From NCBI GenBank assembly GCA_017421325.1, contig JAFOJO010000007.1, forward strand, positions 1 through 45,512: a stretch of DNA of 45,512 nucleotides. Direction: 5' to 3'. Position 1 is the stretch's first letter; each line of letters opens with the position of its first letter. Source of the stretch: Candidatus Saccharimonadota bacterium (GTDB lineage: Bacteria; Patescibacteriota; Saccharimonadia; Saccharimonadales; Saccharimonadaceae). Both the position numbers and the translations under genes were made by a program. Below, piece after piece: positions 6,005 through 32,227 of this stretch. A model generated the notes under the pieces. That model had not been told where the DNA came from. It worked only from the letters and a program-made list of their open reading frames with translations, and made no database searches.

Positions 6005-7276
6005 ATGAAACACTCAGTGGAAGAAATTACGTTAAAGAATGGGGCAAAAGGGCTGCTGATAGATATCCCTGGTGCTAGCGTGATGTCTACTAGAATACAA
6101 TTTCGGGCGGGGATGATGTATGCTAAAAATCACAGTGTATACGAAATACCACACGTGGTGGAGCATCTGGCTTTTGGGGCAAATGCAAAATTTAAAGATG
6201 AGCAGGCCTTTGAGGCGGAATTTACCAAGAATGGAGCTTACCATAATGCTTGGACTTCGGATATTTCGGTATGTTACGAAACGGAATGCGCGGATTTTGA
6301 ATGGGATAGAATAATGGATTTGCAGCGGATATCGATTTGTGAGCCGAAGTTTAATGAGGAAGAATTGAAGAGTGAAAAAGCCAATGTAAAGACCGAGTTG
6401 ACTGGCTACATGAATGACTATTATAGGCTACTATGGCCACGAGTGCAGCAGGCGGTAGGTGAGGATATTTTGGATTTGCCAGAGCGAATTAAAACGATTC
6501 CGAATATTGAACTAAAAGATATTCGCGAGCATTACCGGCGGACACATACGGCGAAGAATATGATGTTTATTATTGCTGGTAAGATTAAGGGGCGTAAACA
6601 TAAGATAATGAAGATGTTGGACGCATGGGGGCTAAAGGAGGGTGAAAAGTTTGAGATACCGGTGGTAGATTTGCATACTGGCGAAGCAGTGTCGATTCGG
6701 CGGAAGGACGCTTCGAATATTACTTTTGGATTTTCGTTAGTGACGCCGCGGCATTTGGAACCGAATGAAGTGTTTGCGATGAACTGTTTGAATCATATCC
6801 TAAACGGTACGACAAATTCAAGGATATTTGGTGTGGCACGGAAACGGGGGTTAGTATACGGGATGGGGTCGTCGGTGGCATCAAATGCTTCTAGCTCGTA
6901 TTGGGATTTTGACGGGGAAGTAAATGTGGAGAACGCAGAAGCTTTGTTTGAGTTAATTCAAACGGAGCTAATGAAGACTTTGAACGGTGAAATACTAGAT
7001 ATGGATTTTCTGGCGGCGAAGTCGTATGCGCTAGGTAGGTTTCAAATGGGGGCACAGACGGTGGGGCAAATTGCGGATTATTATGCCGAAAATTACTTTA
7101 CCAACGAAGCGGTGGTGAAATATGACAGTATGCCAAATTTGATTAAGGGAATCGATAAATTTAAGATGATAGAGCTAGCGCGTGAGTTTGCCGGGTCGGG
7201 CATTAAAGGCTTTGCTGCGGTATCTTCTACGGAGAAAGCATTTATATCTAGCCTAGAGAGTAGATTAAACTTCTAA
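6005..7276 (+). CDS. M16-family zinc metallopeptidase
   Basis: 423 residues, two-lobed M16 (pitrilysin/insulinase) architecture. The inverted zinc motif HxxEH is present as HVVEHLAF (about residues 49-56), and the third ligand glutamate lies about 75 residues later in the SEKANVKTEL region. The second half (about 230-423) has the inactive M16_C lobe. Such enzymes clip peptides in a closed chamber; the substrate is unknown. No signal peptide is visible, so it is probably cytoplasmic. It has its own near-leaderless promoter. Its stop codon overlaps the left arm of the palindromic element at 7275-7432. Confidence 0.85.
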   Translation: MKHSVEEITLKNGAKGLLIDIPGASVMSTRIQFRAGMMYAKNHSVYEIPHVVEHLAFGANAKFKDEQAFEAEFTKNGAYHNAWTSDISVCYETECADFEWDRIMDLQRISICEPKFNEEELKSEKANVKTELTGYMNDYYRLLWPRVQQAVGEDILDLPERIKTIPNIELKDIREHYRRTHTAKNMMFIIAGKIKGRKHKIMKMLDAWGLKEGEKFEIPVVDLHTGEAVSIRRKDASNITFGFSLVTPRHLEPNEVFAMNCLNHILNGTTNSRIFGVARKRGLVYGMGSSVASNASSSYWDFDGEVNVENAEALFELIQTELMKTLNGEILDMDFLAAKSYALGRFQMGAQTVGQIADYYAENYFTNEAVVKYDSMPNLIKGIDKFKMIELAREFAGSGIKGFAAVSSTEKAFISSLESRLNF

Positions 7277-7432
7277 AAGTAATATCTAATTTATGCGCGT
7301 ATCACGTTCACGCAAGGATATTTTTAGTAAATTTCTTAACGGAAAATCTAGATTTCTTAATCTTCGATTTTCCTAAGATTTACTAAAAATCTCTTTGGTT
7401 CGTTCAATGCTTATAAATTAGATATTACTTTT
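7275..7432. repeat. Nested palindromic element mirroring the murD 3' end
   Basis: Three nested inverted repeats. The outer arms are 20/20 identical (7275-7294, AAAAGTAATATCTAATTTAT, and 7413-7432). Middle arms are at 7320-7338 and 7374-7390, and the innermost pair GGAAAATC/GATTTTCC is at 7341-7348 and 7366-7373. The right outer arm is the last codons of murD, so the left arm is an inverted copy of a gene end placed directly after the opposing gene's stop. It probably terminates both convergent transcripts. Confidence 0.8.
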
Positions 7433-8842: not shown

Positions 8843-9919
8843 TTAGAGAGAGGAAAGGATTTTGTGGGCTTCTTCTACGGAGTGGGTTTCCATGAGCTTG
8901 GCTCGGAGTTCTTTGGCGCCGGGGAAGTTGTTGACGTAGATTTTGAAGAAATGTTTAAGTGGTTCGTATGAAATATGTCGAGGTTCGCAATTCCCACAAT
9001 ATTTCGGAAGCTCCGCAATGTGATAATCGGAGATTTTATCACATTGCTCCGCCCCTTCGGCGGCAAGAATCTGCCTTTGGCAGATTTTGCCTTTATGTTC
9101 CTCAATATTTGTGGGAATTGTATATTTTCCATATAAGTCTAAATGCATTTTCAAAAGTTCCATCAATTCTTCGCGGGTGGGAGTGTGGTCGGTGAAACAA
9201 TAGGGGTTGGCGAAAACGCCGCGGCCGATCATGAAACCGTTAACTTCGGGGTATTTTTGATGTAGCTCTAGAGCGTGAGCTTTGTCTTTGATATCACCAT
9301 TGATGATTAATTTCGTTTCTGGACTGACCTTATTGCGCAGCTGAATAATTTCTGGGATTAGCTCATAGTGGGCTGGGACTTTGCTCATTTCTTTTTTGGT
9401 GCGAAGATGTATGGTGAGGGCAGCAGGATGTTCGGCGAGCAAAATTGGTAGCCAGGTTTTATATTCTTCCGGTGCGCTCCAGCCGAGACGGGTTTTAACG
9501 GAGACGGGCAAGGAGGTAGATTTTTTTGCATTTCTAAAACATTCTACGGCTAAGTCTGGGGTTTTGATCATAGCGGCGCCACCGCCGGCTTTATTGACAT
9601 GTTTATCGGGGCAGCCAAAATTAAGATCTACGCCGGAAAAACCAAGATTGCCAAGCGCCTGGCAAGTTTCCGAAAAATGCTCAGGATTTTTGCCCCAGAT
9701 TTGGGCAATGATGGGACTATCTGTGGGGGCGACTTCTAATCTTTCTAGAGCGTTGTGGCGGCCTTTTTCAGAGGCATAGGAAGAAACATTGGTAAATTCT
9801 GTAAAAAATAAATCCGGTCGGCCGGCACGTGCGATAACTTGACGAAACATAATGTCTGTAACGCCTTCCATCGGTGCCAAAATTAGAAATGGTTTTGGTA
9901 AATTGTCCCAGATATTCAC
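8843..9919 (-). CDS. dus: tRNA-dihydrouridine synthase, GTG start, palindromic insert
   Basis: 358 residues when started at GTG 9919 (VNIWDNLPKP). That start is preferred to the ATG at 10036 because TATAAT lies at 9926-9931, 6 nt upstream, and because the longer version would overlap the neighbour and read through its terminator. FMN TIM-barrel motifs: LAPMEGVTD (about 14-22), VDLNFGCPDKHVNKAGGGAA with the catalytic Cys, and VSVKTRLGW. The enzyme reduces uridine to dihydrouridine in tRNA using NADPH and FMN. Residues about 267-311 are encoded by an in-frame palindromic element (8988-9120) located between the barrel and the C-terminal helical domain. This insert is absent from the usual Dus architecture. 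Confidence 0.9.
   Translation of the reverse strand: MNIWDNLPKPFLILAPMEGVTDIMFRQVIARAGRPDLFFTEFTNVSSYASEKGRHNALERLEVAPTDSPIIAQIWGKNPEHFSETCQALGNLGFSGVDLNFGCPDKHVNKAGGGAAMIKTPDLAVECFRNAKKSTSLPVSVKTRLGWSAPEEYKTWLPILLAEHPAALTIHLRTKKEMSKVPAHYELIPEIIQLRNKVSPETKLIINGDIKDKAHALELHQKYPEVNGFMIGRGVFANPYCFTDHTPTREELMELLKMHLDLYGKYTIPTNIEEHKGKICQRQILAAEGAEQCDKISDYHIAELPKYCGNCEPRHISYEPLKHFFKIYVNNFPGAKELRAKLMETHSVEEAHKILSSL
8988..9120. repeat. Palindromic element family B, copy 1 (inside dus)
   Basis: The outer arms CAATTCCCACAATATT (8988-9003) and AATATTTGTGGGAATTG (9104-9120) are inverted and occur in no other copy. Hairpin 1: GCAATGTGATAA (9015-9026)/TTATCACATTGC (9036-9047). A conserved linker CGCCCCTTCGGCG follows. 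Hairpin 2: 9062-9075/9079-9091. The core matches 31690-31817 and 32055-32189. It leaves dus in frame. Confidence 0.85.
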
Positions 9920-10480: not shown

Positions 10481-11520
10481 CACAACCTTTGCAACATAAA
10501 AGGTAGGTTCTATACTTAATTTAATACCACTTAAACAAGAAAGGACCTACCTATGTCATATTGTACAGGTAAGAACATAGAAATAGCAAGAGGTAAAGCT
10601 ATGAAAATGCTAGTTATAGAGAAGAAACCAGTAGGAGTAGTAGCAAATCGTTTCGGAGTGAATAGAAGTACTATTTGGCGATGGCATCAGAAATGGCAAG
10701 CTCAGAATAGTAATAAGGTACTAATAAATCATTATCGCCCAAATAGAAAGCCAGGAGAATACTTCAGATGGGATAATGTATGTTGGGGTATTCCTTCATT
10801 ATCCACTGCGCCAAAAAGCCCTCATACACTCTCAGGTGATCTCATACAGTTAGTTTTAGACGTAAGAAGCCAACTAAAACGATGTGCTGAAGTAATTTGG
10901 TATCACATAAATTCAGTATTATGTATTAAAATCAGCCTCTCTAGTGTGCGTAGAATTCTTAAACGACATGGAAGAATGGATAAACCCAAACATCACCGTA
11001 ATAGGCAATATAAAGGTATTCCTAGACCACGGATATTATATCCTGGAGATTTGGTAGAGATTGACACCATCCACCTATTTAATCCAATTACTAAACAAAA
11101 ACGATATATCTATACTGTAATAGATCTATATACTAGAATGGCATATGCTAGAGTTTATAAAGAACTAAGACCAATTAATTCTTTGAATACAATCATAGAA
11201 GCAGAACAATACTTCGGATTTAGATTTAGGATAGTTCAGAGTGATAATGGACTAGAGTTTAGCAAATACTTTTCAGATAGATTAGAAAAACGAGGAATTA
11301 AAATTCGTCATACTAGATTAGGTAGACCAAATGACAATGCTCATATAGAAAGATTTAATAGGACACTGCAAGAGGAATGCACTGGCAACTATTATTTAGA
11401 GAGTGAATCTCTAAAAGCAATGGACGATAAAATACTGTCGTATATTGACTTTTATAACTATCATCGTATACACTTAGGAATAAGTTATAGAACTCCTAGC
11501 CAGATGTTGCAAAAGTAGTG
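10481..11520 (+). mobile_element. IS481-like insertion sequence (about 1.04 kb)
   Basis: Terminal inverted repeats CACAACCTTTGCAACAT (10481-10497) and ATGTTGCAAAAGTAGTG (11504-11520) match at 15 of 17 positions and enclose one intact transposase gene. The right repeat overlaps the last codons of the transposase. The exact outer ends and target duplication could not be fixed; the flanks show no clear direct repeat. The element looks complete and recently active. Confidence 0.8.
10553..11518 (+). CDS. IS481-like DDE transposase
   Basis: 321 residues in a single frame. A helix-turn-helix region at about 15-60 (VGVVANRFGVNRSTIWRWHQKW) is followed by an rve integrase core. The catalytic triad is visible as D in VEIDTIHL, D in VQSDNGLEF and E in NAHIERFNRT. 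The C-terminal YNYHRIHLGISYRTPSQML motif is typical of IS481/IS3-type enzymes. A single frame without frameshift and a length near 320 favour IS481. Shine-Dalgarno AGAAAGGA precedes the ATG. Codon use is AT-rich compared with the housekeeping genes, consistent with transfer. Confidence 0.9.
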   Translation: MSYCTGKNIEIARGKAMKMLVIEKKPVGVVANRFGVNRSTIWRWHQKWQAQNSNKVLINHYRPNRKPGEYFRWDNVCWGIPSLSTAPKSPHTLSGDLIQLVLDVRSQLKRCAEVIWYHINSVLCIKISLSSVRRILKRHGRMDKPKHHRNRQYKGIPRPRILYPGDLVEIDTIHLFNPITKQKRYIYTVIDLYTRMAYARVYKELRPINSLNTIIEAEQYFGFRFRIVQSDNGLEFSKYFSDRLEKRGIKIRHTRLGRPNDNAHIERFNRTLQEECTGNYYLESESLKAMDDKILSYIDFYNYHRIHLGISYRTPSQMLQK

Positions 11521-11570: not shown

Positions 11571-11680
11571 GCGGGTTCTGGTCGCACCCTATCCTTGAGA
11601 CACACGACTTCGTGCGCCTCGCGAGCAAGGGCCGTTCGGCCGAGCTTATGGTCTCAAGAATGGGGGTCGTAACCACCCGC
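11571..11680. repeat. Palindromic element after the IS, imperfect 30-bp arms
   Basis: Left arm 11571-11601 and right arm 11651-11680 are imperfect inverted copies (GCGGGT at the outer end, CTTGAGAC/GTCTCAAG at the inner end). Inside are two small hairpins, CACGA/TCGTG (11604-11615) and GGCC/GGCC (11630-11641). It has the same architecture as the other elements but a different core. A frame through it encodes about 50 plausible residues (11531-11686), possibly a gene remnant. Confidence 0.6.
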
Positions 11681-11732
11681 TTGAGGTGACCCGCGTAGAG
11701 ATGAAAAAATAGCCTGGAGATATTCAGATCGC

Positions 11733-13768: not shown

Positions 13769-16486
13769 CTAGATTAGGTCGAGTTGGGTTTTGAGGCGGG
13801 AGATGAGGGATTCTTTCTCTTTGATTTGGTCTTTAGTTTCTTTGACGAGGTGCTCGGGGGCCTTGTTGACGTAATTTGGATTCATCATGCGAGCATTTAA
13901 TGCATCCAACTCACGGCCGACAGAGAGAATTTTTTCAGTAAGAGCATCTTTATACTCTGTAACAACCTTTTCGGGAACATCTAGATATAGCTCGTGATTA
14001 GCAAGCGCGAGCCTGAGGCCCCGTGGCTGGCCGTCTAGGCTATTAATGGCCGGAACCTTGGTAAGAGTGCGGATAAGCATCAAATTGTCCTCTACGAGGC
14101 TATCATTGCCGTATAATAGGCTGTATTTTTTGGCGTTATTGGTGCCTGGAAGGGCCTGCAGGGTGCCTCTAACCTCGGACACGACTGAGATTAGGCCTTC
14201 AAACTCGGCAGCGCTGATAGGATCAAATTTAAGCTTATTTGGCCATTTTGCGGTAGCAATAAAACCGTCCGTCCAGGAAAGATTTTGCCAGATAGCCTCG
14301 GTAACAAATGGGGCAAACGGATGCAAAGCAATAAGAATCGTCTCTAGAGTCTGTTTTAAGAGACCGGTATTTTTGAAGATCTTTTGACTTTCTAGGAACC
14401 AGTCGGCGTATTTATCCCAGATGGTTTGGTATAATACTTCGATAGCTTCGGCGAAACGGTAGTTTTTCATTGAACTTTCTACTTGATTGAGGCAATCGTT
14501 GATTTCGCGGCAAATCCAGTCTTCGCCCATGTTAAGCGTAGAGTAAGGCGTTGAAAATGATTCATCTACGACACGCTCGTTCCGGCCCGTCGTTACGGGC
14601 GGAACTTCGCTCCTGCGCTCCTCGTTAGTCGCGCAAGGTCGCTGATGAACATTTTCCAACGTCTCATTGCTATCGTCAACGGTGGATTGAATTAACCTAG
14701 CGATATTCCAGAGTTTGTTGCAGAGATTGCGGCCGGCAATGACACTGTTTTCACTGAAAGCCTGATTCATGCCGGCGGAACGACCTCTTAAAATACCGAG
14801 GCGAAAAGCATCTGAGCCATATTTGGCGACAAGATCCATAGGATTAATGACATTGCCTTTAGATTTGCTCATTTTTTGGCCATGAGCATCCAATACGAGG
14901 CCGTGGAGATAAACTTCTTTAAACGGCACTTCGCCAGTGACGTAAAGACCCATCATAATCATACGAGCTACCCAAGCGAATAATATGTCGGCGCCGGTTT
15001 CCATGACGTTTAGTGGGTAATAGGGGTTGAAATTGTCTTCCGTCCAGTCGGTACAAACAATGGGCCAATGACTAGAAGAAAACCAAGTGTCAAAAGTATC
15101 CTCATCGCGGACGTATTTAGTGCCGCCAACTTCAATCTCTTTGAGGTGAGTGCGACGGTCAAAAATCCAATCTGGCTCGTCGGTGGCAGCATCGGTAACA
15201 CGGCGGAACATTGGGATAGCAATACCCCAAGGGATCTGGCGGGAGATATTCCAGTCCTTGAGATTTTTGAGGTAATTAATCAGGACTTTTTGCTTGTTTG
15301 CCGGATGGAATTTGATCTCGTTTTGCTCTAGATGTTTGATGGCGACGCTGGCTAGTTTTTCAACATCTACAAACCATTGCTCTTTGAGCATAGGCTCCAA
15401 CACGGTGCCGCATTTATAGCAGTGGGCTACAGAGTGAACGAGCTGTTTTTCGCCCCTGAAAAGATCGGCGGCTTTGAGATCTTTTAGGACTTGCTTGCGG
15501 CATTCAGCAGTAGTGAGACCGTAGTATTTTTCTGGGACATTAATCATGGTGCCATTTTCAGAAATCACCTTGATACGCTCGAGGTTATGGCGTTCGCCTA
15601 CCTCGAAATCATCAAAATCGTGGGCGGGGGTGATTTTTACGGCGCCGGTGCCGTACTCGGGGTCGGCGTGTTCGTCGGCAATAATCGGGATTTCTTTATT
15701 AGCGAGTGGAAGGTGAACAGTTTTGCCAATTAGATCTTTGTATCGCTCATCTTCAGGATTAACGGCTACGGCGGCATCACCAAAAAGAGTCTCTGGCCGG
15801 GTGGTGGAGACGATAATTTCGCCACCATCATAAGTGTAGGCAATATCCCAGAGGGTGCCTTTTTCATCTTTGTGCTCTACCTCGATATCGGCAAAGGCGG
15901 TCTGATGTTTCGGGCAAAAGTTGACGAGCTTTTCGCCGCGGTAAATCATGCCGTCGTTCCACATTTTTTCAAAAGTGGTGTAGACGCGATCGATGACGTT
16001 TTCGTCTAGGGTGAAAGTGAGGTCATCCCAAGAACAAGAGGCGCCAAGAGCGCGGAGTTGCAATTCCATATTGCCACGTTGCTCAGCGACAAAATCCCAT
16101 ACACGGGCATAAAGCTCGTTGCGGTCGTATTCAAAGCGAGTGTGACCTTGTTTTTCTAGATTGCGCTCGTAAACGACCCAGGTCTCAAAGCCAGCGTGGT
16201 CTGCGCCAGGGATATACCAAGTAGAATTACCCTTAAGGCGGTGGTAGCGGATGAGGGAATCTTCTACGGCGATAGTGAGGCCGTGGCCAATGTGCAGGTT
16301 GCCGTTGGCATTGGGGGGTGGCATGACAATACTGTAAGTGTTTTTATTATCACGGTCATCTTTGCCATCGCCGTTGTTATCTACGGGCACCGTGGGGACG
16401 GGTGGGGCGAAGATATCGCTGGCTTCCCAAGCGCCATAAATATCACTTTCATATTCTCCTGGTTCATAACTACTCGCAAATTTCAT
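13769..16486 (-). CDS. valS: Valine-tRNA ligase with in-frame palindromic insert
   Basis: 905 residues, class I synthetase. The HIGH motif is PPPNANGNLHIGHGL (about 56-70), the editing domain is in the middle (STTRPETLFGDAAVAV, GTGAVKITPAHDFDD), and the KMSKS motif is KMSKSKGNVINP (about 537-548). The anticodon-binding domain and a C-terminal coiled coil (LSVGRELDALNAR... KEKESLISRLK) follow. It charges tRNA-Val and hydrolyses mischarged threonine. Residues about 609-646 come from the palindromic element at 14550-14660, between the catalytic and anticodon-binding parts, with no frameshift. A -10 box TAAAAT at 16493-16498 lies 6 nt before the ATG, so the transcript is leaderless. Confidence 0.97.
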   Translation of the reverse strand: MKFASSYEPGEYESDIYGAWEASDIFAPPVPTVPVDNNGDGKDDRDNKNTYSIVMPPPNANGNLHIGHGLTIAVEDSLIRYHRLKGNSTWYIPGADHAGFETWVVYERNLEKQGHTRFEYDRNELYARVWDFVAEQRGNMELQLRALGASCSWDDLTFTLDENVIDRVYTTFEKMWNDGMIYRGEKLVNFCPKHQTAFADIEVEHKDEKGTLWDIAYTYDGGEIIVSTTRPETLFGDAAVAVNPEDERYKDLIGKTVHLPLANKEIPIIADEHADPEYGTGAVKITPAHDFDDFEVGERHNLERIKVISENGTMINVPEKYYGLTTAECRKQVLKDLKAADLFRGEKQLVHSVAHCYKCGTVLEPMLKEQWFVDVEKLASVAIKHLEQNEIKFHPANKQKVLINYLKNLKDWNISRQIPWGIAIPMFRRVTDAATDEPDWIFDRRTHLKEIEVGGTKYVRDEDTFDTWFSSSHWPIVCTDWTEDNFNPYYPLNVMETGADILFAWVARMIMMGLYVTGEVPFKEVYLHGLVLDAHGQKMSKSKGNVINPMDLVAKYGSDAFRLGILRGRSAGMNQAFSENSVIAGRNLCNKLWNIARLIQSTVDDSNETLENVHQRPCATNEERRSEVPPVTTGRNERVVDESFSTPYSTLNMGEDWICREINDCLNQVESSMKNYRFAEAIEVLYQTIWDKYADWFLESQKIFKNTGLLKQTLETILIALHPFAPFVTEAIWQNLSWTDGFIATAKWPNKLKFDPISAAEFEGLISVVSEVRGTLQALPGTNNAKKYSLLYGNDSLVEDNLMLIRTLTKVPAINSLDGQPRGLRLALANHELYLDVPEKVVTEYKDALTEKILSVGRELDALNARMMNPNYVNKAPEHLVKETKDQIKEKESLISRLKTQLDLI
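14550..14660. repeat. Palindromic element family A, copy 1 (inside valS)
   Basis: Imperfect outer arms GTTGAAAATGATTCATC (14550-14566) and GATGAACATTTTCCAAC (14644-14660). The core hairpin is GCCCGT-CGTT-ACGGGC (14585-14600), extended by GTTCC/GGAAC. The core plus the CTCCTCGTTAGTCGCG segment recurs at 28434-28545. On the valS strand it encodes VPPVTTGRNERV. Confidence 0.85.
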
Positions 16487-18965: not shown

Positions 18966-19028
18966 TTCGGCTCCTCTGTGAGAGCTAGGATTTATGGATC
19001 CGTCACTAGCTCTCACAGAGGAGCCGAA
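18966..19028. repeat. Perfect 23-bp inverted repeat
   Basis: TTCGGCTCCTCTGTGAGAGC plus TAG (18966-18988) is perfectly inverted at 19006-19028, with a 17-nt loop. It ends 8 bp from the stop of the VirB6-like gene and has no T-run. It may terminate that gene or be another mirror element. Confidence 0.75.
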
Positions 19029-24487: not shown

Positions 24488-24669
24488 ATATTGAAAACTC
24501 TTTTCCGCCAGCTTGGACTTTTGAACCTGTTATTTTCACAACATAAGTCAAGAAAAAATCTCCTTAGTCGCTACGCTAGGGGAGATTTTTTCATTGTTAA
24601 GTTGTAAAAATAACGTTCAAAAATCTGGTCTAAATCTCATTTATGCTGGCGGAAAATAGTTTTCAATAT
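24488..24669. repeat. Nested palindromic element mirroring the murE 3' end
   Basis: Outer arms 24488-24512 and 24645-24669 are inverted at 24 of 25 positions. The right arm is murE coding sequence (C-terminal KTIFRQHK region), and the left arm begins directly after the stop of the opposing gene. Middle arms are 24519-24542/24601-24622. The inner hairpin AAAAAATCTCC (24553-24563)/GGAGATTTTTT (24581-24591) is a bidirectional intrinsic terminator. Its loop contains TTAGTCGC, also seen in family A elements. Confidence 0.85.
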
Positions 24670-28159: not shown

Positions 28160-29401
28160 TTATTTTAAAGAGAGAATTACGAGATTTTCAACGTGAGGAG
28201 TGCGAGGGAAAAAGTTGAAAGTTTTGACATCTTCAATCTTGTATTTATCTAATAAAATTTTCACATCGCGGGCTTGAGTGGCGGGGTTACAGGATAAGTA
28301 AATAACAGTTTGGGGGCGGACTTCTAGGAGTTTGTCGATTAGTTTTTTGTCACAGCCGGCGCGAGGAGGGTCAAGGATGACGGTTTGGTCTGGCTCGAGA
28401 TAATCTAAGACTTCTTCTGATTTGGCATTAACCGCAAGAATACTATCATTTCGGACTCGCTCGCTTCGGCCCGTCGTTACGGGCGAAGCTTCGCTCATTC
28501 CGCTCCTCGTTAGTCGCGTACGGTCCTCAATAATAGTATTCTTGCAGTTCTTAGCAAGTTCAGCGTAAGCCGATTTATCAACTTCAACCAAAATAAGCTG
28601 CTTGTCGCGGGCGACGGAGAGGCCGATGGTGCCGACGCCGGCGTAGAGGTCCAGGACATTATCGGTATTAATATATTTTTGTATTTCTTTCAGGGCTAGC
28701 TCGTAGACCGGTAGGTTAATCTGGAAAAAGCCGTTTGGGGAATAAGAATAAGTCTGACCAAGGATTTGGTCGATAAGATTATCAAAAGCTGGATGAGGTT
28801 TACGATTTTCGTAGAGACCGCCGGAAACTTCACCATTTTGGTTGCAACGGAGCAAAATGGACTGATATTTACGGGCTTCCTCGTGGCGACTGTTTAGATC
28901 ATCAATAATTTGCTGAGCTTTGGTGAAAATTTCGGGACGCTCGATAGAGGAAGTTGTAACCGGAATTTTACGATGTGAACCGCGAGTGTGAAAGGCGAGC
29001 TCTATTTTATTTAATTCATTATTCCAATAGAGAGCATATTCCATTTTATTGCGGTAAAAATATGGGGTATCGTCGGTAAAAACTTCGGGCTTTTCCATAT
29101 CTATATGGTGTTCGCGGAAGATTTCTACCACTAGATCTATTTTAAGCTGGTTTTCGTAATCCCAGTCTATAATTTGCCAAGGGGAGGTAGAGAGAAAACA
29201 AGTATCTTTGGGCTCTACGCGGAACTTGGAAGGATTTTCAATTTTAGCGGCGATAGCTTCTACGAAATGCGATTTCTGCTTAGTAATATCATACTCTGTG
29301 ACAATTTCGCCAGGCAAGGCATTCCAAAAGAAGACCTTACGGCCATCTTCTAAAGTGCCGAGTGCTTGGCCACCAGGGATAATTTTCTCTACTTTTACCA
29401 T
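28160..29401 (-). CDS. 23S rRNA (uracil-5-)-methyltransferase, RlmD/RlmCD-like
   Basis: 413 residues from ATG 29401 (MVKVEKIIPGGQALG). The upstream ATG at 29437 is rejected because TATAAT (29409-29414) lies between them, 7 nt before 29401. N-terminal TRAM-like domain, then the SAM-binding Rossmann core VLDLYAGVGTIGLSVA and the catalytic motifs VILDPPRAGCD and SCNPATQARDV (nucleophilic Cys). FFQINLPVYELAL precedes the core. It adds a methyl group to a uridine C5 in rRNA or tRNA; the exact site is not readable. Residues about 286-323, between the SAM motif and DPPRAG, come from the in-frame palindromic element 28434-28545. Confidence 0.88.
   Translation of the reverse strand: MVKVEKIIPGGQALGTLEDGRKVFFWNALPGEIVTEYDITKQKSHFVEAIAAKIENPSKFRVEPKDTCFLSTSPWQIIDWDYENQLKIDLVVEIFREHHIDMEKPEVFTDDTPYFYRNKMEYALYWNNELNKIELAFHTRGSHRKIPVTTSSIERPEIFTKAQQIIDDLNSRHEEARKYQSILLRCNQNGEVSGGLYENRKPHPAFDNLIDQILGQTYSYSPNGFFQINLPVYELALKEIQKYINTDNVLDLYAGVGTIGLSVARDKQLILVEVDKSAYAELAKNCKNTIIEDRTRLTRSGMSEASPVTTGRSERVRNDSILAVNAKSEEVLDYLEPDQTVILDPPRAGCDKKLIDKLLEVRPQTVIYLSCNPATQARDVKILLDKYKIEDVKTFNFFPRTPHVENLVILSLK
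28434..28545. repeat. Palindromic element family A, copy 2 (inside methyltransferase)
   Basis: Outer arms GCAAGAATACTAT (28434-28446)/ATAGTATTCTTGC (28533-28545), 13/13, differ entirely from the valS copy. GGAC/GTCC pair inside. The core GCCCGT-CGTT-ACGGGC is shared with valS, but the flanking stem is GCTTC/GAAGC instead of GTTCC/GGAAC, a compensatory change. It encodes SPVTTGRSERV in frame. Confidence 0.85.
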
Positions 29402-29460
29402 ATAATATATTATAGCACGAAACTTTACTTTTTTCATAAGTATGTTATAATTATAGTATT
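29402..29460. promoter_or_regulatory. Divergent near-leaderless promoters
   Basis: TATAAT on the minus strand (29409-29414), 7 nt before the methyltransferase ATG 29401. TATAAT on the plus strand (29446-29451), 9 nt before ATG 29461. Confidence 0.55.
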
Positions 29461-31689: not shown

Positions 31690-31817
31690 TATAATTCATT
31701 AATATCTCGGAAGCTTCGCAATGTGATAATGGATTTTATCACATTGCTTCGCCCCTTCGGCGACCAAACCGCCTGCGGCAGTTTGGTCTTTATGTTCCTC
31801 AATATTAATGAATTATA
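31690..31817. repeat. Palindromic element family B, copy 2 (intergenic)
   Basis: Outer arms TATAATTCATTAATAT (31690-31705)/ATATTAATGAATTATA (31802-31817), 16/16. Hairpin 1 GCAATGTGATAA/TTATCACATTGC as in copy 1. Hairpin 2 GACCAAAC (31762-31769)/GTTTGGTC (31781-31788) differs in sequence from copies 1 and 3 but still pairs. Confidence 0.85.
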
Positions 31818-32042: not shown

Positions 32043-32054
32043 CTAAACGCACTT

Positions 32055-32189
32055 TTGCATAATTCATTATGTTTCGGGAGCTTCGTGATGTGATAATAAA
32101 TTTTATCACATCACTTCGCCCCTTCGGCGGCAAAATCTTCTTTCAGCAGATTTTGCCTTTATGTCCCTCAACATTAATGAATTATGCAA
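32055..32189. repeat. Palindromic element family B, copy 3 (intergenic)
   Basis: Outer arms TTGCATAATTCATTA (32055-32069)/TAATGAATTATGCAA (32175-32189), 15/15. Hairpin 1 is GTGATGTGATAA/TTATCACATCAC, with two compensated changes relative to copies 1 and 2. Hairpin 2 GGCAAAATC (32129-32137)/GATTTTGCC (32149-32157). Confidence 0.85.
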
Positions 32190-32227
32190 TAGCAAAGTTA
32201 ATTAAACTAAACTATAGGTGAGGTAAA

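Follow-up and report, generated by a model that had tools for sequence, protein, structure and literature searches.

A structured repeat set in frame within enzyme genes of Saccharibacteria carries site-specific inverted arms that probably derive from the host flank

Introduction

Palindromic elements within translated essential genes are known mainly from the Rickettsiales, and how they move has been unresolved for more than 20 years. RPE and the palindromic elements of Wolbachia are about 100-150 bp long, palindromic, fall into several families, and are inserted in frame and translated (PMC2229807, PMC10969869). RPE have terminal inverted repeats of their own, listed as 12 bp (PMC2229807), and reportedly lose repeat identity over time (PMC6649704, citing Claverie and Ogata 2003). 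MITEs are bounded by conserved terminal inverted repeats and, as a rule, flanked by direct target duplications. The Yersinia element YPAL/RU-2 is palindromic, its targets span or adjoin dyad symmetry, and it is associated with duplications of variable size (PMC2229807). In the mitochondrial coding palindromes of Nematomorpha the arms are thought to be made or kept by template switching or conversion (PMC6649704).

Here we describe a repeat, termed family A, in a genome of Saccharibacteria (G000; 861 kb, 40 contigs). The window that was analysed is contig 30 of this genome, 45,512 nucleotides in length; other G numbers denote the congener genomes that were compared with it.

Family A is like RPE and the Wolbachia elements in its genome-wide duplication, its palindromy and its translated, in-frame insertion in conserved genes, but differs from RPE in that its arms are unique to each site, resemble host flank and remain paired, and in the phylum in which it occurs. 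With MITEs (Correia/NEMIS, RUP, ERIC and QMITE, and family B of this genome) it shares short length, a non-autonomous nature, hairpin formation and high copy number, yet neither the conserved terminal repeats nor the direct duplications of MITEs were seen. REP/BIME sequences mobilised with RAYT (Y1) are likewise short, palindromic and structured, but they are extragenic and accompanied by Y1, whereas family A lies mostly in genes and Y1 is absent from G000. The palindromes of Nematomorpha are also inverted repeats inside coding sequence; they are long and perfect, with no repeated core reported in the passages bearing on this, whereas family A has a conserved mobile core and short arms. YPAL is flanked by direct target duplications of 3-26 bp, and family A sites by inverted, not direct, repetition. 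In the open-licence literature searched we found no account of such elements in Saccharibacteria, and nothing that fits inverted target duplication for bacterial miniature elements.

Results

Two copies in the window

Both copies in the window lie in sense orientation within long open reading frames, in frame and free of stops. The features are as follows.

28160..29437, minus strand: host gene, 23S rRNA uracil-C5-methyltransferase of RlmD type (NCBIfam TIGR00479, E=5e-49, slightly under the curated cut-off)
28454..28525, minus strand: family A core in rlmD, 72 nt, sense on the coding strand, GACC...GAGTC (covariance model R1 match at 28426-28552, minus strand, 121 bits)
28499..28520, minus strand: hairpin 1 of the rlmD core, TACGCGAC-UAACGA-GGAGCGGA (covarying pairs 34-53 (UA/CG) and 41-46 (UA/CG) in alignment A1)
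28463..28489, minus strand: hairpin 2 of the rlmD core, GCTTCGCCCGT-AACG-ACGGGCCGAAGC (11 pairs, 8 of them changed on both sides, 95% of cells paired)
28529..28545, minus strand: 5' site-specific arm in rlmD, GCAAGAATACTATTATT, probably the inverted copy (inverted repeat I5; sequence unique to the site)
28434..28450, minus strand: 3' site-specific arm in rlmD, AATGATAGTATTCTTGC, probably native flank, encoding ..SILAVNAKSE (ILAKSE motif match in congener RlmD proteins)
13769..16486, minus strand: host gene, valine--tRNA ligase (NCBIfam NF004349, 884 bits, over the cut-off)
14570..14640, minus strand: family A core in valS, 71 nt, sense (covariance model R1 match at 14541-14667, minus strand, 116 bits)
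14641..14660, minus strand: 5' site-specific arm in valS, ACGTTGGAAAATGTTCATCAG region, pairing with 14550-14569
14550..14569, minus strand: 3' site-specific arm in valS, GATGAATCATTTTCAACG region, probably native flank (conserved TPYSTLNMGEDWICREI directly after it)

An earlier sequence-only reading had proposed that 28434-28545 and 14550-14660 are copies of one element, that they share the hairpin GCCCGT-CGTT-ACGGGC and a further segment, and that the adjoining stem is GCTTC/GAAGC in rlmD and GTTCC/GGAAC in valS through compensatory change. All of this held, at exactly those positions; the shared segment is CTCCTCGTTAGTCGCG. That reading did not mention an outer stem that encloses the shared core and differs between the copies. 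Around the rlmD core this stem is 17 bp long (GCAAGAATACTAT.ATT / AAT.ATAGTATTCTTGC), and around the valS core it is 18-20 bp long and unlike the rlmD stem in sequence. DNA folding gave z-scores of -6.0 for the rlmD copy and -4.7 for the valS copy, with no shuffled sequence folding equally well. A covariance model trained on 39 genus-wide copies, these two included, matched exactly the rlmD and valS copies in the window (E about 1e-33).

A covarying core repeated throughout the genome

The core of family A, about 72 nt long, consists of GACC, hairpin 1 (consensus NNCGC-GAC-UAACGA-GGA-GCGNN), hairpin 2 (consensus GCNNCG-CCCGU-AACG-ACGGG-CGNNGC) and GTC. It covaries as a structure. Across 39 copies, 92.5% of core cells are paired, against 81.9 +/- 0.6% in shuffles, and double changes occur at 15 of the 23 core pairs; doubly changed cells number 102, against 25 +/- 6.5 in shuffles. 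The covariation score is 0.315, compared with 0.127 for shuffles and at most 0.09 for slid versions.

This two-hairpin core is repeated about 20 times per genome. DNA similarity identified nine copies in G000, two of which (on contigs C1 and C18) have cores 100% identical to the rlmD core, and the covariance model gave 21 matches in G000 at E<0.001. Hosts in G000 include ValS, LeuS, IleS, MnmA, DnaX, TlyA, PolA, ObgE and RlmD; GyrA and UvrB were identified as hosts in G056 by sequence inspection. A single DNA query matched 61 of 99 congener genomes, and the covariance model 42 of 43 sampled congeners, together with 8 genomes from three other genera of the family. There was no covariance-model match in the other 139 of the 143 genera sampled from the order. 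A known RNA family was considered as an identity for the element and rejected, as no Rfam 15 entry matched 28380-28600 up to E=1.

Other repeats in the window and the genome

Several further repeats were observed. Family B is MITE-like, with the conserved terminal inverted repeat TGCATAATTCATTA, and occurs in the window at 31690-31817, 32052-32192 and about 8999-9109; comparison of G000:C36:17551-17731 with G056 revealed a clean empty site, the 8 bp duplicated in direct orientation being AAAACGCT. At 24488-24669 a 132-nt MITE-like core lies between convergent genes, within 25-bp near-perfect site-specific arms, and its family recurs in G000 with different arms at each copy. At C4:3442 a 132-nt MITE-like core unrelated to family A likewise appears to have one native arm (the gene end CAAGAATAA) and one inverted copy. 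Strong intergenic inverted repeats, with arms of 20/20 and 23/23 bp, are present at 7275-7432 and 18966-19028. A short S-type element (the reverse of GGACCATAAGCTCGGCC...GTCC, identified by eye) at about 11590-11690 directly follows an integrase-core transposase gene at 10553-11518. G000 also has a further abundant, structured family between genes, of the form TGCTATAACC..CCTTACGGCGCCAT..GGTTATAGCA (for example C14:89370-89495 and C1:28903-29034).

The outer arms are specific to each site

All nine copies found by similarity in G000 are enclosed by an additional inverted repeat peculiar to the site, which forms an outer stem of 15-25 bp. The arms are self-complementary and site-specific: among 68 full copies, Watson-Crick pairing is 81% between the two arms of one copy and 41% between arms of different copies, and despite this self-complementarity the arms of different copies are on average only 43% alike. 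Where two copies have cores of at least 95% identity (96-100% as observed), their arms are merely 36-79% identical; for copies within one genome with 100% identical cores the range is 57-79%. The copy at locus L003 has a core identical to that in rlmD, yet perfect 25-bp arms of its own. Because the arms differ where the cores are near-identical, they are not inherited as part of the element. A weak consensus, a purine run followed by a T run, reaches up to 0.9 bit per position, and the arms thus partly reflect target preference and are not wholly arbitrary sequence.

Mismatches in the stems of sense in-gene copies are G.U in 21 cases and A.C in 6 (p=0.003), which could hint at selection on RNA. 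Elsewhere G.U did not significantly exceed A.C (7 to 4 in antisense in-gene copies and 12 to 9 in intergenic ones). Arm conversion through template switching is another possible account of the pairing as such.

Filled and empty sites

The closest relatives, G056, G157 and G161, are just 86-88% identical to G000 in valS DNA, so empty sites had to be judged across divergence. No insertion was caught between near-identical strains among the genomes compared. Our readings of arm origin rest on alignments over 12-25% divergence; the insertions are inferred and were not themselves observed.

The L003 copy (G000 C18:9956-10071) lies between two convergent genes. At the corresponding site in G056, G157 and G161 there is no copy, and the genes overlap. 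The coding end of the downstream gene (..IITATSIK-stop versus ..IITAEIKD-stop) is continuous with the right arm of L003, of which the left arm is the reverse complement. The LeuS site (L008) is empty in the five closest orthologues (G045, G061, G001, G161 and G056), where the landmarks are 42 residues apart, compared with 67 in G000. Here the peptide encoded by the right arm, DKNVSVRNRT, matches DKTINIRHKT, and the left arm repeats the right one in inverted form; about 20 nt of native sequence on the left appear to have been replaced, rather than simply duplicated.

At L003, L008/LeuS, L006 and C14:85039 it is the arm 3' of the sense core that looks native, and the inverted repeat is missing from the empty sites. 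No direct duplication was found at these four sites, for which the relatives are merely 75-88% identical. The rlmD and valS copies and two further LeuS copies (in G055 and G115) agree with this 3' polarity; unlike these sites, the antisense copy in MnmA yielded no polarity call. In two short S-type elements (C32:5650 and G009 L345) the native arm is apparently on the 5' side, and polarity may therefore depend on subtype. Given a native-looking 3' arm and an opposite arm that looks like its inverted copy at sites that are empty in relatives, insertion probably copies host flank in inverted form.

In-gene copies keep the reading frame

Of 107 distinct copies, 78 lie within open frames of at least 450 nt. 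In a test in which the flanks alone decided the coding context, 70 of the 79 copies situated between long same-strand open frames kept the frame and had no internal stop, where length and stop phase would lead one to expect about 22% (a rough estimate, as orthologous copies are not independent). Sense copies (n=53) are distributed as 30 and 23 over the two phases free of TAA and never occupy the TAA phase; antisense copies split 7, 6 and 6 over the three phases. Both sets of counts are conditioned on an open frame. Frame keeping and stop avoidance thus show, at the level of sequence, that the in-gene copies are translated. In the structure model of RlmD (mean pLDDT 88), insert residues 305-324 fall below 50 and sit between a helix and a strand, and the model thus predicts a disordered loop at the insert, with confidence high elsewhere in the fold.

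Repeated occupation of the same loops

In most congeners the same loops of RlmD and ValS are filled, with several core types. At the ValS site, the arms of G157, G088 and G007 are 85-100% alike and their cores 65-70% alike, while between G157 and G001 the similarity is 96% in the core and 77% in the arms. At the RlmD site, homologous arms show double changes in G056, G001, G093 and G081 (arm pairs GGCGAT/ATGTCGCC, GGTGAT/ATATTACC, GTTAATAC/GTATTACC and GTTATTAC/GTAATAAC, respectively). The similarity of arms around different cores at one site implies that cores are exchanged inside persisting stems.

As a separate observation, in valS of G157 (L205) hairpin 2 of one element holds a second, nested element, without closing the frame.

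Candidate mobilising enzymes

No mobilising enzyme or intermediate was found for family A, and a search that was not exhaustive identified no autonomous parent transposon. Mobilisation by Y1/RAYT was rejected: the Y1 transposase (PF01797) has no match in G000 and is rare in the genus (3 of 99 congeners). Reverse transcriptase occurs in 60 of 99 congeners without association with family A (Fisher p=0.41), and G036, G046 and G055 have many family A copies and no reverse transcriptase match. Mobilisation by reverse transcriptase, including target-primed reverse transcription, was rejected, as the enzyme is not a constant companion of the element. G000 itself encodes a reverse transcriptase (PF00078) at C40:16837-17547.

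Discussion

The sequence-only reading is supported overall, with refinements. Its view that pairing is kept over sequence held for the core, where it is borne out by covariation across 39 copies, and both copies do keep the reading frame. The absence of further genomic copies, which it named as grounds for refutation, is not what we found; many exist, as the covariance-model search that it suggested revealed. The inserted residues, which it held to be lineage-specific (609-646 of ValS and 286-323 of RlmD, the latter counted from Met13 of the ORF and equal to 298-335 from the first ATG), are so in that the LeuS site is empty in its closest orthologues and element-free ValS and RlmD orthologues exist. 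Neither of the two refuting conditions that it set was thus fulfilled. A tolerated protein insert is supported by the frame counts and by the structure prediction for RlmD. The similar peptide VTTGR-ERV is indeed encoded by these two copies, because they share a reading phase; elsewhere the element is read in a different phase (PRNDGR) or on the opposite strand, and what is conserved is therefore not the peptide. Two claims changed in scope. One element in two enzymes becomes a set of loops that most congeners fill with different core types. Selection as a nucleic-acid structure needs qualification, as arm pairing need not reflect selection: it seems to be created at insertion, and could be maintained by template-switch conversion.

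Family A meets the RPE feature of in-frame, stop-free insertion in conserved genes (70 of 79) and does not meet that of an own conserved terminal inverted repeat. Without a conserved terminal repeat it is filed neither as an RPE nor as a MITE. It resembles RPE as a translated palindromic guest but is, in our judgement, not an RPE, although no sequence comparison with RPE underlies this.

We consider family A most likely to be a non-autonomous, duplicating, structured DNA element that resides largely within protein genes and whose arms arise by fold-back from the flank. Template switching at replication forks perfects quasi-palindromes and has been proposed for the mitochondrial coding palindromes of Nematomorpha (PMC6649704). 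A replication template switch is our best guess for movement; it is inferred, and would yield the exact anatomy without a dedicated transposase. A nascent strand would jump to a core elsewhere, or to its RNA or single-stranded DNA copy, and copy the core; it would then snap back on itself for about 20 nt before returning to its template. Fold-back synthesis at the hairpin base would copy 15-25 nt of the native 3' flank, inverted, to the other side, where it would replace or displace the sequence previously on the 5' side. In essential genes, only in-frame insertions in tolerant loops would survive. Once a stem exists, its core may be swapped for another subtype, and the same loops would be occupied repeatedly. 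An unrecognised transposase remains possible.

A bolder reading, against which we lean slightly, is that of a selfish DNA class inserting by target-templated fold-back, with terminal inverted repeats made from host flank. Its corollaries, that the ends are never conserved, that no transposase is needed, that the stem is renewed by conversion and that cores are exchanged, are ones we would not quite endorse. We are similarly hesitant about its extension to several unrelated core families (family A, the short S-type and the 132-nt MITE-like elements).

The rival that survives best, though we think it unlikely, is a conventional transposon of MITE or RPE type whose terminal inverted repeats diverged at each site after insertion through compensatory changes. 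In its favour, family B in G000 has a conserved terminal inverted repeat and, at one clean empty site, an 8-bp direct duplication; the arms of family A have a weak consensus; and double substitutions separate the orthologous RlmD-site arms of different species. Against it, arm similarity is only 57-79% between copies of one genome whose cores are identical, whereas slow divergence would have hit the cores too, and the inspected family A empty sites show no direct duplication.

Insertion into a hairpin or palindrome that already existed (a terminator or cruciform tip) and later became the outer stem is also improbable. Several other elements in G000 do lie between convergent genes, where terminators are expected, and the C4:3442 site in a relative carries a terminator hairpin. 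However, the relatives' empty sites at L003, L008/LeuS and C14:85039 contain no matching inverted repeat, 20-bp palindromes are not expected from coding loops, and the left arm at C4:3442 is the reversed end of the neighbouring gene (CAAGAATAA), which a terminator does not explain.

It is similarly unlikely that the outer stem and core form a functional, non-selfish mRNA element, for expression control or RNA-protein binding, under selection as RNA. The stem persists with double changes at the same loops in most congeners, and the G.U excess in sense in-gene copies is as RNA selection predicts. Against this stand the antisense and intergenic copies, which lack a significant G.U excess, the unrelated enzymes that act as hosts, the common element-free orthologues, and the duplication of the core at unlinked sites, which is typical of mobility.

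An intron-like or bypassed intervening sequence, removed from the RNA or skipped by ribosomes, would suit a compact hairpin structure within essential genes but is very unlikely, as frame and stops would then be irrelevant and yet most copies are in frame and open, and there is no Rfam match.

Under the fold-back reading that we favour, arms that are inverted host flank would be an unusual mode of insertion for a mobile element. The arms record the insertion of each copy, which makes the mechanism testable by comparison of filled and empty sites. Family A appears to be an independent and very abundant case, in Saccharibacteria, of palindromic elements within translated genes, in a group with more than 170 comparable species genomes. 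Throughout the genus, core enzymes, among them aminoacyl-tRNA synthetases and DNA polymerase I, contain disordered inserts that are probably selfish in origin, and these bear on annotation, on protein models and on ideas about the origin of new protein segments.
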